DNA from: Candidatus Melainabacteria bacterium GWF2_37_15
GTDB taxonomy: Bacteria; Cyanobacteriota; Vampirovibrionia; Gastranaerophilales; UBA9971
Assembly (NCBI GenBank): GCA_001784565.1
Contig: MFRL01000021.1
Location: 1-37,679, forward strand
Reading direction: 5' to 3'
DNA length: 37,679 nucleotides
The notes under the pieces were generated by a model, which worked only from the letters and a program-made list of their open reading frames with translations, was not told the DNA's origin and made no database searches. The translations under genes were made by a program, and so were the position numbers. Positions 7,131-29,628 of the stretch are shown here, piece after piece (within the stretch, counting starts at the first letter, position 1; every line of letters begins with the position of its first letter).

Positions 7131-7385
7131 TTGCCCATTAGGAAATGTTTAGGGTGTAACAAGATTAACGAATCCTCTCAAATGGTGAAAATAACCAGGG
7201 TACACAACACTCGCAACATATTAATAAATCCCCCTTCAACATATTTTGGCCGATCTTCTTATATTTGTTATAATAAAGAGTGCGTACAAAATGTAATTAA
7301 AAGGAAAAAACTTCCCAAATCACTAAAAACAGAAATATCTCAGGAAATTATTGAACAAATTAAGAATCTAACAGGAATAAAGTAA
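7131..7385 (+). CDS. ylxR: YlxR family RNA-binding protein (DUF448)
   Basis: 84 residues. The N-terminal PIRKCLGCNKINESSQMVKITR matches the YlxR signature (P-x-R-x-C-x-x-C). The later RSSYICYNKECV matches the conserved GR-[GS]-[AS]-Y-x-C region, and a Lys-rich stretch (KRKKLPKSLK) is consistent with nucleic-acid binding. YlxR proteins sit between nusA and infB in many bacteria and are implicated in RNA binding and regulation of nearby transcription. The start is TTG at 7131, with AGGAGG at 7115-7120 placed 10 bases upstream; no ATG fits the conserved N-terminus. Its stop codon directly abuts the infB ATG, so translation is probably coupled. Confidence 0.88.
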   Translation: MPIRKCLGCNKINESSQMVKITRVHNTRNILINPPSTYFGRSSYICYNKECVQNVIKRKKLPKSLKTEISQEIIEQIKNLTGIK

Positions 7386-9989
7386 ATGGCAGCAGAAAAA
7401 ATAAGAGTATATGATATAGCAAGGAAGCTGAACCTCTCGAATAAAGAGGTTGTGACTGCCCTGGAAAAACTGGGTGTTACTGTAAAGTCACACTCCAGTA
7501 CAATCAGCCCGGAAGAAGCAGTAAAACTTGAGTCTCTTTTAAAAGGAAAAAAAGAGACTACTTCTGCTGTCAACACTAATATAAGACCACCCAGGCTTAT
7601 AAAAAGGGAAAAACCACCTATAGTAGAAGAACCTGAGAAAAAAGAAGAGCAAGAAAAGAAAGAAGTAAAGGCTGCCGTAATTACACAGCCGACACCTGTT
7701 GCTAAGCCAGAGGAGCCAAGAGTTGAACCTCTAAGGTCAGAAACTAAACAACCGGAAGTTAAACAGCCTGAACCTCAGAGACAGGATTTCAGGAAACCAG
7801 AATTTCAAAAACCAGAATTCAGACAGGGATCTGCCCCCCAAAGACCTCCATTCAGGCCTGGTGAAAGACCGCCTATGTCAGGGCAGGGCCAAAAGCCTCC
7901 GTTTAGGCCTCCATTCAGACCTGGCGAGAGACCGCCTATGTCAGGCCAGGGTCAAAAGCCTCCATTTAGGCCTCCATTCAGGCCTGGTCAGGGCCCAAGA
8001 CCGCCATTCAAGCCACAGTCTCAAACTCAAGCTCCGCCTAAGCCGGGAGAAACTGCTGAACAGGCAAAACGGGTTCCGGTAAGAAAAGAAGTTCCAAAGA
8101 AAAAAGATAGTTTCAGGGAAAGAGAAGAACAAAGGCTCGAAAGGCTGGAGGAACTAAAACTCCAGGCCAAGCTTGCTGCGAAGAAAAAATTAAGAGAAGA
8201 AGAAGTCCCTGTTGAAATAGCTAAAGAAGTAATTATCGATAAACAGTTAACTGTTGGTGAACTTGCTGCAAAGCTGAATTTAAGCATAGCAGCAGTAATT
8301 AAACAGTTAATGATGTCAGGAATTATGGCTACTGTTAATCAGGTAATTGACGTGGAAACCGCAAAAGAAGCGGCAAAAGCTTTCGAATATACAATAATTG
8401 AACCGGAAGCCGAGAAAAAAGCAGCTGAAAAACCTGCAAAAAAAGAGCAAGATGAATCAAAACTTTTGCACAGAGCTCCCGTGGTTACTATTATGGGACA
8501 CGTTGACCATGGAAAAACCACGCTTCTTGATTCAATCAGAAAAACCAAGCATAAAATAGTCAGTACTGAAGCTGGAGGCATAACCCAATCTATTGGCGCC
8601 TACAGAGCAGAAGTAAATGACAGGAAAATTGTATTTATTGATACCCCGGGCCACGCTGCTTTTACTGCAATGAGGGCAAGGGGAGCAAAAGTCACAGATA
8701 TCGTAATTCTTGTTGTGGCGGCAGATGACGGTATTATGCCGCAGACAATTGAGGCTATAAACCATGCTAAAGCAGCAAAGGTACCTATAATTGTGGCTGT
8801 AAATAAAATTGACAAGGAAGGCGCTGATCCTGACAGAGTATTGCAGCAGCTTACCGAGTATGAGCTTGTTCCTGAAAAGTGGGGCGGTGAAACAATAACA
8901 GTAGAAGTTAGCGCACTTCAGGGACTTAATATTGATGAACTGCTTGAATATATTATTCTCGTTGCTGATGTTGAAGAGTTATCAGCAAATCCTGGCGCTC
9001 CTGCATCAGGTGTAATAATTGAATCCAAGCTCGACAAGGGCAAAGGCGCTGTAGCTACTTTCCTTGTACAGTCAGGAACACTTAAAGTGGGTGATTTTAT
9101 TGTAGCGGGCACAGTAGGCGGCAGGATAAGGGCTTTGATTGATGACAGCGGTGAAAGAGTTCAGCAAGCCGGACCAAGTACTCCTGTTGAAGTTTTAGGG
9201 CTTTCTGAAGTGCCTGAGGCCGGGGAATTCTTCGAAGCTGTTGAAAATGACAGAATGATGAAGGATTTAGTCAATAAAAGAAGTGACATAACAAGAATGA
9301 CCAGGCTGGAAGCTATTGCCCCAATGCAGGTAAAGCGCGAAATGCTGCTTAAAGGACTTGAAGGGGAAACAAAAGAGCTTAATATAATAATTAAATCTGG
9401 AACACACGGCGCTGCTGAAGCTGTGAATAACGCCCTGCAACAGCTTGAATCCAAAAAAATCTTTATCAAGGTTGTCCACCTCGGAGTCGGAGACATTTCC
9501 GAAGCTGATGTAATGCTTGCATCCGCAAGTAACGCTATTCTTGTCGGATTCGGAGTTAAGGAAGACCCGAACGCATTAAGAGTGGCAGCGGATGAAGGCG
9601 TTGTAATAAGGAAATACGATATCATATATAAAATGATGGAAGATATTGAGCAAACAATGCTTGGGCTCCTTGAACCGGAGTATAAGGAAATTGAAATCGG
9701 CACTGCTGAGATTAGACAGGTATTTACAGTAGGCAAAACTACGAAAATCGCCGGCTGTTATGTGCTTGACGGGAAAATAATAAGAAACAAAGAAGCTAAA
9801 CTACTTAGAAACGGAAAAGAGATTTATAAAGGAACCATAGGCCAGCTTAAACGCTTTAAAGACGATGCAAAAGAAGTGGCCAGCGGTTATGAATGTGGCA
9901 TATCTTTCGATAAATTTAATGATATTGAAATTGGTGACATAATCAAGGTTTTATCTAAAGAAAAGATTGAAAGACATACCCTGGTATAA
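7386..9989 (+). CDS. infB: Translation initiation factor IF-2
   Basis: 867 residues. IF-2 is the GTPase that brings initiator fMet-tRNA to the ribosome. The N-terminus has an IF2N domain ([25 protein letters not shown]), then a long low-complexity region rich in Pro, Lys, Glu and Gln with a tandem repeat at about residues 155-201. A second IF2N domain ([21 protein letters not shown]) precedes the G domain. G-domain motifs are GHVDHGKT at 371-378, DTPGH and NKID. Domains II-IV follow to a regular C-terminus ([21 protein letters not shown]). The start codon adjoins the ylxR stop with no spacer, and rbfA follows 11 bases after infB. Confidence 0.97.
7848..7989 (+). repeat. 63-bp tandem repeat inside infB
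   Basis: Two full 63-bp units (7848-7910 and 7911-7973) and a partial third (from 7974) each begin CCATTCAG and encode a 21-residue Pro/Arg/Gly/Gln unit ([14 protein letters not shown] and so on). The copies differ at a handful of mostly synonymous sites. They lie in the disordered linker of IF-2, where length varies freely, so this is a candidate copy-number-variable tract. Confidence 0.9.
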
Positions 9990-10000
9990 GGAGTATCACC

Positions 10001-10351
10001 ATGAATACAAGAGGGGAAAAGATTAGAAAAGCTCTTATTAGGGAGATTAGTGACGTAATTCAGCACGGACTTAAGGATCCCAGGATAACAGGCATTATTT
10101 CCGTAACTGATGTTGAATTGTCGCCTGATTACAGGTATGCAAAGGTATTTATAAGCATTTACGGCGATGAAGAAAAAAAGCAGACCATAATGGAAGCGCT
10201 GGCAGATGCCGCATATGCCATAAGAAAAGAAGTTGGCAAAAGAATAAGAACCAGGCATATCCCGGAACTAACGTTTTTCCTTGATGAATCCCTTGAAAAA
10301 GGCAAGAAAATAGAGGATTTATTGGACAAGATTTCGCGCGGTGAGGTGTAG
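10001..10351 (+). CDS. rbfA: Ribosome-binding factor A
   Basis: 116 residues, with AAGGAG upstream of the ATG. RbfA binds the 30S subunit near the 5' end of 16S rRNA and is needed for its maturation. Family features seen: RGEKIRKALIREISDVIQHGLKDPRI at the N-terminus, ISVTDVELSPDYRYAKVFISIYG, and the KH-fold end IPELTFFLDESLEKG. The last residues (KISRGEV, stop TAG) overlap a 17-bp sequence that recurs at 11646-11662. There the same frame would read ISRGEL then TAA. This suggests the original 3' end of the gene was displaced by an inserted module. The GTG start of the next gene overlaps the TAG stop by one base. Confidence 0.95.
   Translation: MNTRGEKIRKALIREISDVIQHGLKDPRITGIISVTDVELSPDYRYAKVFISIYGDEEKKQTIMEALADAAYAIRKEVGKRIRTRHIPELTFFLDESLEKGKKIEDLLDKISRGEV
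10329..10345 (+). repeat. Left direct repeat of the Uma2-ParDE module
   Basis: AGATTTCGCGCGGTGAG lies in the last codons of rbfA and is repeated exactly at 11646-11662. The two copies bracket the three accessory genes. Confidence 0.8.
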
Positions 10352-10929
10352 TGACCCGCTTGCCAAAAAAACAGGATAAACCCTATACATACTCTGATTA
10401 CCTGACCTGGGACGACCGGGAAAAATGGGAGCTGCTTAATGGAGTAGCCTATATGCAGGCTGCGCCAAGCTGGCAACATCAGAAAATAGTTGCTCAATTG
10501 GGGCGGCAATTTTTAAATTACTTCCAAAATAAACCCTGTGAAACATATCTGGCGCCGTTTGATGTGAGGTTACCGGAAAACAAAAAATCTGACGAAGAGT
10601 CCACAACTGTTTTGCAGCCTGATATTGTTGTTATATGCGATAAATCAAAACTTAAAGATACAGGCTATTTTGGCGTGCCAGTACTTATTATAGAAATAGT
10701 TTCCCCGGCATCAAGCAAAATGGACAAGTTATACAAGTTCAACAAGTATGAGCAGGCCGGTGTAAAAGAATACTGGATAGTAGAGCCGGATTATAAGGTT
10801 GTAAGCGTATTCAGACTGAAATCCAATAAAAAATACGGCCGGCCGGATAATTATTCAGAAGATGACACTATTAATGTTAAAAATTTTGCGGATTTAATTA
10901 TTGACTTAAGGGACGTTTTTGTATTTTAA
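10351..10929 (+). CDS. Uma2 family (DUF820) putative endonuclease
   Basis: 192 residues. Uma2 proteins have a PD-(D/E)xK nuclease-like fold and are abundant in cyanobacteria; their substrates are mostly unknown. Visible features: TYSDYLTWDDREKWELLNG with the conserved Glu (E27) before LNG, QPDIVV with D91, VLIIEIVSP with E115, and the KYEQAGVKEYWIVEP signature. The full catalytic set D-ExxxxP-K is plausible, with the lysine in the MDKLYKFNKY segment. The start is GTG at 10351, overlapping the rbfA TAG (TAGTG), with a purine-rich GGTGAGG just upstream, so it is probably read through from the rbfA operon. It lies within the module bounded by 17-bp repeats. Confidence 0.85.
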   Translation: MTRLPKKQDKPYTYSDYLTWDDREKWELLNGVAYMQAAPSWQHQKIVAQLGRQFLNYFQNKPCETYLAPFDVRLPENKKSDEESTTVLQPDIVVICDKSKLKDTGYFGVPVLIIEIVSPASSKMDKLYKFNKYEQAGVKEYWIVEPDYKVVSVFRLKSNKKYGRPDNYSEDDTINVKNFADLIIDLRDVFVF

Positions 10930-10950
10930 CTTTATTTTTATGCACAAATA

Positions 10951-10979
10951 TTTACTTCTGTGCGCAAGAAGTTTATAAT
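10951..10979 (+). promoter_or_regulatory. parDE promoter with embedded operator
   Basis: TTTACT (10951-10956) and TATAAT (10974-10979) are 17 bases apart. Between and over them lie perfect 6-bp inverted arms ACTTCT (10954-10959) and AGAAGT (10967-10972) around a TGCGCA core. Placement of a palindrome in the spacer is typical for autorepression by a ribbon-helix-helix antitoxin such as ParD. Confidence 0.65.
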
Positions 10980-11014
10980 GTTAATATGCTTTCAAAAACA
11001 GAAAGGAACTGGCC

Positions 11015-11293
11015 ATGAAACAAAATCGAGTGAATGCCAATTTACCGGAATCTTTAGCCTATCACGTCAATATTATGTGCGGCGAGGGGGGATTTTATGA
11101 TAGCGCCAGCGAATATATCAGGGATTTAATCCGGCAAGATTTAGTCAGAATAGAGCATGAAAAAACCGAAAGGCTCAAGGCAAAACTGGTGGCCAGAATT
11201 AACAGGCCTGTTAGTGAGTTTATAAAAGTTGACCCTGAATCCGCTATTCAGGAATTTAAACAACGCTGTAGAGCCAAAAGAAAGGCCAAATAA
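11015..11293 (+). CDS. parD: ParD-like ribbon-helix-helix antitoxin
   Basis: 92 residues, preceded by AAAGGA. The N-terminal NRVNANLPESLAYHVNIMCGEGGFYDSASEYIRDLIRQDL is a classic ribbon-helix-helix DNA-binding module of the ParD/CopG type. The C-terminal half is charged (EHEKTERLKAKLVARINRPVSEFIK), the part that usually wraps and neutralises the toxin. It overlaps the toxin start by one base (TAATG), giving tight coupling. The palindrome in its promoter is the likely self-regulatory site. Role: labile antitoxin and autorepressor. Confidence 0.85.
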   Translation: MKQNRVNANLPESLAYHVNIMCGEGGFYDSASEYIRDLIRQDLVRIEHEKTERLKAKLVARINRPVSEFIKVDPESAIQEFKQRCRAKRKAK

Positions 11294-11637
11294 TGGAGAT
11301 AATCTTTTATTCGGCAGCCCAGGATGAAATTTTTAACATTTATGATACAACAGATGAAAAATGGGGCGAAAAACAAGCGGATAACTATATCTCCGGTTTG
11401 TATGAAACAGTCGGCCTAGCCGCAAAAAGACAAAAAAATTGGCGGAAATACGGCGACCTTGCAGAAGATGCAAAACGTCCGATTTATTTTGTGTCTTACA
11501 AGCGACATTGCATCTTTTTTGAGGTCATTGAAGAAGAGAACGCAATCGGGGTGATTGGCGTTTTTCACGAGGCAATGGACATTCCTGCCCGCCTGCTGGA
11601 TGCAATCGTCAGTCTTGGCAGGGAACCTCGAGCTTAA
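11293..11637 (+). CDS. parE: ParE-like toxin (RelE/ParE superfamily)
   Basis: 114 residues. The fold is recognisable from IIFYSAAQDEIFNIYDTTDEKWGEKQADNYISGLYETVGLAAKRQKNWRKYGD, then IYFVSYKRHCIFFEVIEEENAIGVIGVFHEAMD, which matches the 'gyrs.r.ghhvIfY......I.I.rilH..mD' end of ParE toxins. ParE family members mostly inhibit DNA gyrase; whether this one does is not known. It is encoded directly after parD with a 1-base overlap. Its last 29 bases overlap the end of the convergent minus-strand gene, a sign of a recent junction at this site. Confidence 0.85.
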   Translation: MEIIFYSAAQDEIFNIYDTTDEKWGEKQADNYISGLYETVGLAAKRQKNWRKYGDLAEDAKRPIYFVSYKRHCIFFEVIEEENAIGVIGVFHEAMDIPARLLDAIVSLGREPRA

Positions 11638-12163
11638 TGAAGTTTAGATTTCGCGCGGTGAGCTCTAAATACTTATTCAAATAATAATTTTCCGTAGGGG
11701 TTTTCTTTGAATGTTTTTCTTTTAAGTAAGAAGCCATTGGTGTTGCAAAAAGAGGAACAATTATTCTCTCGCCAATAACACCAGAACCTATTAAAGCTGC
11801 TGCCGCTATAAATCCTTTTTTTGCAATACTATTCACTTCACCTTTAAGATGGCCAAATAATTTGTTACAAACAATTTTTTGCATGTTTCTATTGCTAATT
11901 GCAAAACCCAGCGCCAGTTGCACAACACACGTTGTAACTCCGCTCGCTAAATCCAGAGCTGCGACAAACCCTCTTTTTTCCTCAGGGATTTCTTTATTTT
12001 TCCTGCTCTTATCGTAACGAAATCCATATACAACCGCATCTTTTAAAACATTGGAGCAAACAAGCAGCCTTGCAGCATAAATATCATCACTTATGACCTT
12101 ATTAACATGCTTATTCATAAAAGTGCTTTTAGAAAGGCTTTTAAAAATTCCTGATACGGTCAT
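11609..12163 (-). CDS. Unknown protein with hydrophobic helices
   Basis: 184 residues. The ribosome site AGAGAGGTGA lies in the last codons of the upstream gene, and the two genes are 2 bases apart, so they form an operon. Hydrophobic Gly/Ala segments occur at about 68-90 (FVAALDLASGVTTCVVQLALGFAI) and 115-137 (KKGFIAAAALIGSGVIGERIIVPLFA); the rest is Lys-rich. No known family is recognised; it resembles its upstream partner and the genes at 4988 and 35449 in style. The C-terminal end (NFIKLEVPCQD) runs through the right module repeat and into the antisense of parE. Before the insertion it probably ended shortly after ...LELTARN. The true native end is therefore likely altered. Confidence 0.7.
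   Translation of the reverse strand: MTVSGIFKSLSKSTFMNKHVNKVISDDIYAARLLVCSNVLKDAVVYGFRYDKSRKNKEIPEEKRGFVAALDLASGVTTCVVQLALGFAISNRNMQKIVCNKLFGHLKGEVNSIAKKGFIAAAALIGSGVIGERIIVPLFATPMASYLKEKHSKKTPTENYYLNKYLELTARNLNFIKLEVPCQD
11646..11662 (+). repeat. Right direct repeat of the Uma2-ParDE module
   Basis: An exact copy of the 17-bp sequence in the rbfA 3' end. Read in the rbfA frame it continues to Leu then TAA (11663-11668), like an orphaned native end of rbfA. On the minus strand it encodes part of the C-terminus (ELTARN) of the adjoining gene. Confidence 0.8.
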
Positions 12164-12165
12164 TT

Positions 12166-12660
12166 TTATTTTTTCACCTCTCTTAAACTATCCGTTTGAG
12201 GCATTATTTTTTTCATAGCTTTAGGATAAGCCCAGTTCGTAATAGATGTTACGACTGGAATAGCAGCAAGGGCTGCTAAAATACCTATTCTATCTTTAAA
12301 TACACCAAGCTTTTTCTGAATTAATTCAAGGTTAGGGCCTTTGCTGACGCCTTTAAGATTAAAATCATCCGCTAGCTTGCCTTCAAGAGATAATTTATCT
12401 ACATATTTATCAATTTGATTAAGCGCCAATAGCTGAATAGCAATAGTTAAAACAGCTTCTATAGGCTGCTTCCACGCAGAATACACACGGGTTTCCTTAT
12501 TTTCTTTAGAAAGCGGGTTAAACGCTATAACCAAAGGCGCTATGGCAAATTTACCCGCAGCATTAACAATATTAGCGACTTTTTCCCCGCCTGCTTCAGC
12601 AAATCGAACTGAAAATTTAACCAATCCGGATTTATTTGCAATTTGATTACTTATATTCAT
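12166..12660 (-). CDS. Unknown protein with hydrophobic helices
   Basis: 164 residues from ATG 12660. Two hydrophobic stretches are seen: about 34-50 (AAGKFAIAPLVIAFNPL) and 120-140 (RIGILAALAAIPVVTSITNWAY), plus an amphipathic middle (AVLTIAIQLLALNQIDKYVD). This suggests a membrane-associated protein with a soluble loop. It is first of a two-gene unit with the 184-aa gene downstream (2-base gap). I recognise no family. A small Gly/Ala-rich membrane protein of this kind could be an envelope component; that is speculation. Confidence 0.7.
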   Translation of the reverse strand: MNISNQIANKSGLVKFSVRFAEAGGEKVANIVNAAGKFAIAPLVIAFNPLSKENKETRVYSAWKQPIEAVLTIAIQLLALNQIDKYVDKLSLEGKLADDFNLKGVSKGPNLELIQKKLGVFKDRIGILAALAAIPVVTSITNWAYPKAMKKIMPQTDSLREVKK

Positions 12661-29424: not shown

Positions 29425-29496
29425 AGCGGGAGACGAGGCTCGAACTCGCGACCTCTTCCTTGGGAAGGAAGCATTCTACCATTGAACTACACCCGC
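29425..29496 (-). tRNA. tRNA-Gly (CCC)
   Basis: On the minus strand the cloverleaf has acceptor GCGGGTG, D-arm TAGTTCAATGGTAGAA, anticodon loop TTCCCAA (anticodon CCC) and T-arm with GTTCGAG. The acceptor stem has a U-U mismatch at pair 6-67 (GCGGGTG against CTCCCGC), and CCA is not encoded (ATT follows the discriminator). It is otherwise nearly identical to the neighbouring tRNA-Gly(GCC), from which it probably arose. Confidence 0.85.
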
Positions 29497-29553: not shown

Positions 29554-29628
29554 TGGAGCGGGAGACGAGGCTCGAACTCGCGACCTCTTCCTTGGCAAGG
29601 AAGCATTCTACCACTGAACTACTCCCGC
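29554..29628 (-). tRNA. tRNA-Gly (GCC)
   Basis: A complete cloverleaf on the minus strand: acceptor GCGGGAG pairs fully with CTCCCGC, D-arm TAGTTCAGTGGTAGAA, anticodon loop TTGCCAA (anticodon GCC), T-arm GTTCGAG. The 3' CCA is encoded (29554-29556). This is the canonical major glycine tRNA. Confidence 0.95.

Follow-up and report, generated by a model that had tools for sequence, protein, structure and literature searches.

How did three accessory genes come to lie between two identical copies of the end of rbfA? We examined this locus in Candidatus Melainabacteria bacterium GWF2_37_15 (G000), whose genome comprises 2.27 Mb in 102 contigs and is 92% complete. The window, by which we mean the whole stretch of DNA analyzed, covers 37,679 nt of contig MFRL01000021.1. 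Elsewhere on its reverse strand it carries two nearly identical tandem tRNA genes (29425 to 29496 and 29557 to 29628; Rfam RF00005).

The repeated end of rbfA

The rbfA gene (10001 to 10351, forward strand; PF02033, E=1.2e-34) encodes 116 amino acids ending in DKISRGEV. Its last codons form the left copy (10329 to 10345, forward strand) of a 17-bp exact direct repeat, AGATTTCGCGCGGTGAG. The right copy (11646 to 11662, forward strand) begins 8 bp past the parE stop and is followed by CTC TAA (11663 to 11668, forward strand), which, read from the sequence, completes a displaced rbfA ending, ISRGEL. The conserved 3' end of rbfA thus reads KISRGE-V-stop at the left copy, whereas the right copy reads KISRGE-L-stop, as in most relatives. 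The inserted segment between the copies (10346 to 11645, forward strand) is 1,300 bp long, and the repeat spacing is 1,317 bp. Searches of the window and genome confirmed the repeat, and the alternative ending was present in the sequence as the initial annotation had described it. No further copy of the 17-bp core occurred in the window at ≤3 mismatches (0.02 expected), nor was there a third copy across the 2.27-Mb genome at ≤2 mismatches.

We considered whether the repeat could have arisen by chance. Some exact 17-mer repeat in a window of this size is not rare per se, as an unspecified one appeared in 50 of 300 random (Markov) sequences of 37.7 kb. Against this, the probability of this particular core is ∼1e-11 per site, which gives ∼5e-8 expected matches within 5 kb downstream of rbfA. 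The right copy additionally bears a Leu codon and a stop, and a Leu, Ile, or Val codon followed by a stop makes up 1.4% of window hexamers. As a gene-end control, we used 300 predicted genes (318 kb of sampled stretches from the source genome and nine family members) and asked whether the final 40 nt of each recurred exactly in the 6 kb downstream. Only one tandem flagellin paralogue pair had a longer repeat than rbfA, the next being 15 and 14 bp, and nothing comparable and nonparalogous was found at these 300 gene ends. Because the repeat is placed on the rbfA end and a hydrophobic codon and a stop follow its right copy, we regard chance as practically excluded, and the initial claim that the repeat is hard to explain by chance was borne out. 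The flagellin genes (L099 on G000:C7, reverse strand, 161 to 1921) share a 41-bp identical 3' stretch; we rejected this repeat as a second similar case in the genome, as it reflects tandem paralogues.

We detected rbfA in all 60 genomes searched and read its ending at 30 loci, where it was ISRGEL, ISKGEL, ISRGEI, or similar. Endings in L are the common state in the family. The V ending (GTGTAG) was confined to the source genome and to its sister genome, G002, the closest relative, in which rbfA adjoins no cassette and no Uma2 gene was found; the rbfA end of G005 was masked. The initial annotation had held that an rbfA always ending in V, irrespective of the block, would speak against integration, and this is partly the case: G002 has GTGTAG without the block, and thus the V ending need not derive from an inserted element. 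At all four synonymous codons of the core, the two copies agree, although relatives vary at each. None of the other 29 rbfA loci had a second copy of its own rbfA end (≤2 mismatches in 15).

In most of the order, truB lies directly behind rbfA. This arrangement was not seen in G000, G001 to G003, G006, or G008 (for G001, in only 101 bp of contig). In G007, a gene that we take to be ORF6N-like from its sequence (L051, 2422 to 2967) sits exactly between the rbfA stop and truB, and its borders show no flanking repeat of ≥10 bp. In G008, a tRNA-like sequence and a gene that is presumably RhuM-like, likewise recognized by sequence rather than by a family search, lie downstream of rbfA in place of truB (L045, reverse strand orientation, 7269 to 8636). 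The site at the rbfA end thus accepts accessory genes in this family, and duplication of the end was seen only in the source genome.

A convergent gene of 184 amino acids with no Pfam match (11609 to 12163, reverse strand) overlaps the parE end and spans the right repeat. When the flanks are joined at the repeat, an intact 116-amino-acid rbfA is obtained that ends in ISRGEL, the family's usual ending, together with a plausible convergent minus-strand gene of 175 amino acids ending in LELTARNLVQ. This reconstruction fits the right copy being the displaced native rbfA end. The initial annotation had predicted an empty site in relatives, with rbfA ending in ISRGEL followed directly by the minus-strand gene; none was found on the relatives' rbfA contig stretches, and in no relative did the minus-strand gene adjoin rbfA there. 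Relatives of this gene have 27 to 44% identity and variable C-termini. It belongs to a small protein family without Pfam or NCBIfam matches (window 11609 to 12660 on the reverse strand, G000:C77, G000:C82, L034 to L037, and L039), which has several copies per genome in the bacterial family, with a conserved core and variable C-termini.

The genes between the copies and their origin

As the initial annotation had proposed, exactly three accessory genes are bracketed by the repeat. The first (10351 to 10929, forward strand) encodes a Uma2-family PD-(D/E)xK-type nuclease (PF05685, 99.3 bits against a gathering score of 27). Its GTG start overlaps the rbfA stop (TAGTG), and because its frame opens only at 10345, its translation is probably coupled to that of rbfA; GGTGAGG, inside the repeat, is a possible ribosome-binding site. 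The second gene (11015 to 11293, forward strand) encodes a ParD-like antitoxin of 92 amino acids (TIGR02606, E=1.6e-6, under the curated cutoff), and the third (11293 to 11637, forward strand) encodes a ParE-like toxin of 114 amino acids (PF05016, 35.7 bits; cutoff, 23) that ends 8 bp before the right repeat. The two overlap by one base (TAATG), and the same parD-parE gene order is found in L077. Adjacent ParD-like and ParE genes define a type II toxin-antitoxin system, and this pair qualifies with a sub-threshold ParD match. Ahead of parD lies a sigma-70-like promoter, TTTACT-17-TATAAT (10951 to 10979, forward strand), which is a consensus match only, as the number of promoter-like sites found was not above that in shuffles. 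A Pfam profile search of the three genes identified no recombinase or transposase, in line with the claim that the block has no recombinase of its own.

Uma2 was found in none of the 29 relatives searched in the same family and order; of 291 further genomes from the phylum, 2 contained it at E≤1e-30. Because it was not found in these 29 relatives, Uma2 was probably acquired. ParE relatives were present in 5 of the 29 (best, 49 to 58% identity); for instance, in G017 the same parD precedes the parE relative, and in G005 a parD homologue lies upstream in a stretch that stops inside parE. The whole block is best read as acquired, judging by these sequence comparisons, although its G+C content (∼0.38 to 0.43) is only slightly higher than the window mean (0.37). 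Relatives on plasmids are distant (best, ∼51% for Uma2 and ∼38% for ParE), no parDE is annotated alongside the closest Uma2 relative on a plasmid, and ParE had no match in viral contigs. We rejected the idea that rbfA itself is foreign, as its 88% identity to G002 is in line with that of its neighbors (nusA, 86%; infB, 73%; rimP, 63%).

How the block may have been joined to rbfA

Whatever the mechanism, it is firm that the repeat exists, that its copies read as alternative endings of rbfA, and that no Uma2 gene was found in the relatives. We weighed three mechanisms, all of which predict an identical right border. It is important to note that their ranking is our judgment and that the data do not separate them firmly.

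Our tentative preference is that the 1.3-kb Uma2 and parDE cassette was joined behind rbfA by homology-facilitated illegitimate recombination. In the incoming fragment, the cassette would have stood behind an rbfA end of the V type. The left side of this fragment would have paired with the recipient rbfA by homology, and its right side may have been joined illegitimately where 2 bp (AG) overlapped, without a dedicated recombinase. The recipient's tail, AGATTTCGCGCGGTGAGCTCTAA (ISRGEL), would thereby have been left 1.3 kb downstream as a remnant, and parDE, expressed from its own putative promoter, may help to retain the block. We favor this account because each copy supplies a full rbfA ending, V-stop on the left and L-stop on the right, which would be no coincidence if both are genuine rbfA ends. 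We also found neither a recombinase nor terminal inverted repeats, and the core had no additional copy. Moreover, the left end can be a native allele, since G002 shares the V ending and has neither a cassette next to its rbfA nor Uma2. The same explanation has been given for 3' ends left behind after module insertion at Vibrio T6SS and Rhs loci (PMC5361080). Four points weigh on the other side. All four synonymous core codons are identical between the copies, so the donor must be almost the same strain, and the account then only moves the question of how the cassette was first captured to that donor. Recombination of this kind is reported to fall orders of magnitude below ordinary recombination in frequency (PMC5361080). 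No donor or empty sibling strain was found among the relatives examined. Finally, exact placement at a gene end would also be typical of site-specific elements.

Site-specific integration, whether by a recombinase acting in trans or through a decayed IME or CIME, is possible, if rather doubtful. An rbfA-end mimic carried by the element would have restored the gene (V ending), with the native L end at the right border. This would explain the exact placement at a housekeeping-gene 3' end with the reading frame restored, and it fits what is known of tyrosine-recombinase elements, which generally have repeats of 8 to 60 bp and often target housekeeping-gene 3' ends (PMC5704250). Four PF00589 hits were found in the source genome, as was a reading frame for a serine recombinase in the L091 locus, and a helper may be missing from the assembly because the genome is 92% complete. 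However, the block contains neither a recombinase nor a remnant of one, there is no third core (the best match beside the four PF00589 loci has 6 to 7 mismatches), and the V ending of G002 occurs without an element. Neither the genome, the integrase flanks, nor viral contigs, where the core itself had no match, yielded an autonomous relative of the block or a recombinase that uses this core. The initial annotation had looked to the core at other rbfA loci or beside other cargo; it was found nowhere else in the genome, nor beside integrases, and the lack of a second end at the 29 other rbfA loci also counts against this mechanism. Of the integration at the rbfA end that had been proposed, an acquired-looking insertion and a displaced end stand, while site-specific integration as such is unsupported.

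Three particular kinds of element were rejected. A DDE transposon or insertion sequence does not fit, as the block has no terminal inverted repeats and no transposase among its three genes. Modules moved by Xer recombination are bounded at each end by a 28-bp pdif site with a XerC arm and a XerD arm; by inspection against the consensus, identity stops at 17 bp and the XerD arm fits only 2 to 3 of 11 positions beside either copy. For an integron gene cassette, the junction GTTTAGA is unlike GTTRRRY, and no inverted-repeat pair spans the parE end.

It is unlikely that the repeat instead stems from repair of a staggered break in rbfA, filled in around captured linear DNA so that 17 bp were duplicated on both sides. 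Such repair requires no recombinase and accounts for the lack of any synonymous difference between the copies and for the sharp limits of their identity. It would, however, leave the V-stop directly after the left copy to chance or selection (1.4% of hexamers) and make the identity of the left ending to that of G002 a coincidence. Less probable still, in our judgment, is that the block is a minimal defense-plus-addiction cassette mobilized in trans through the 17-bp core, in which case the end of rbfA would be a hotspot in the family for accessory genes such as those in G007 and G008. Overall, the block probably goes back to a single insertion event rather than to a novel type of mobile element.

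Significance and comparison with known systems

If the block were a one-off capture, it would clearly illustrate how an essential translation operon can take up a toxin-antitoxin system and a candidate defense gene unharmed, the former gene end persisting as a scar. If it were mobile, it would be among the smallest defense or addiction units at a housekeeping-gene end, lacking its own recombinase, and would add rbfA to the known insertion targets; in the literature searched, no paper linked rbfA to both genomic islands and attB.

One parallel is offered by SCC and pseudo-SCC elements of staphylococci, which lie in the 3' end of rlmH: a short gene-end repeat flanks accessory genes there, and some copies lack a recombinase. 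The rbfA block differs in that it lies in another gene, is without a Ccr recombinase, and has no related element that we could see. CIMEs are decayed IMEs or ICEs that keep their att sites and have lost recombinase and transfer genes (PMC5704250). The block resembles them in having cargo between direct repeats, one of which restores a housekeeping-gene 3' end, and in lacking recombination genes. It differs in being only 1.3 kb long and in that no related autonomous element or further core was found; its 17-bp repeat is at most a candidate att core, and recombination there is hypothetical.

The Uma2 protein matches four profiles of PADLOC PDC-S03, a Uma2-type single-gene defense candidate (best E=3.8e-58). 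In contrast to that single-gene design, Uma2 is linked to parDE in the source genome, and its defense role is putative. The Vibrio T6SS and Rhs loci are similar in that a new module follows a conserved gene part and the former 3' end persists beyond it, but there the displaced pieces are immunity genes or effector tips (PMC5361080), whereas here it is a 23-nt housekeeping tail. The parts of the rbfA locus are known; what is unusual is their arrangement, in which accessory genes sit at the 3' end of a gene and its apparent former end lies beyond them.
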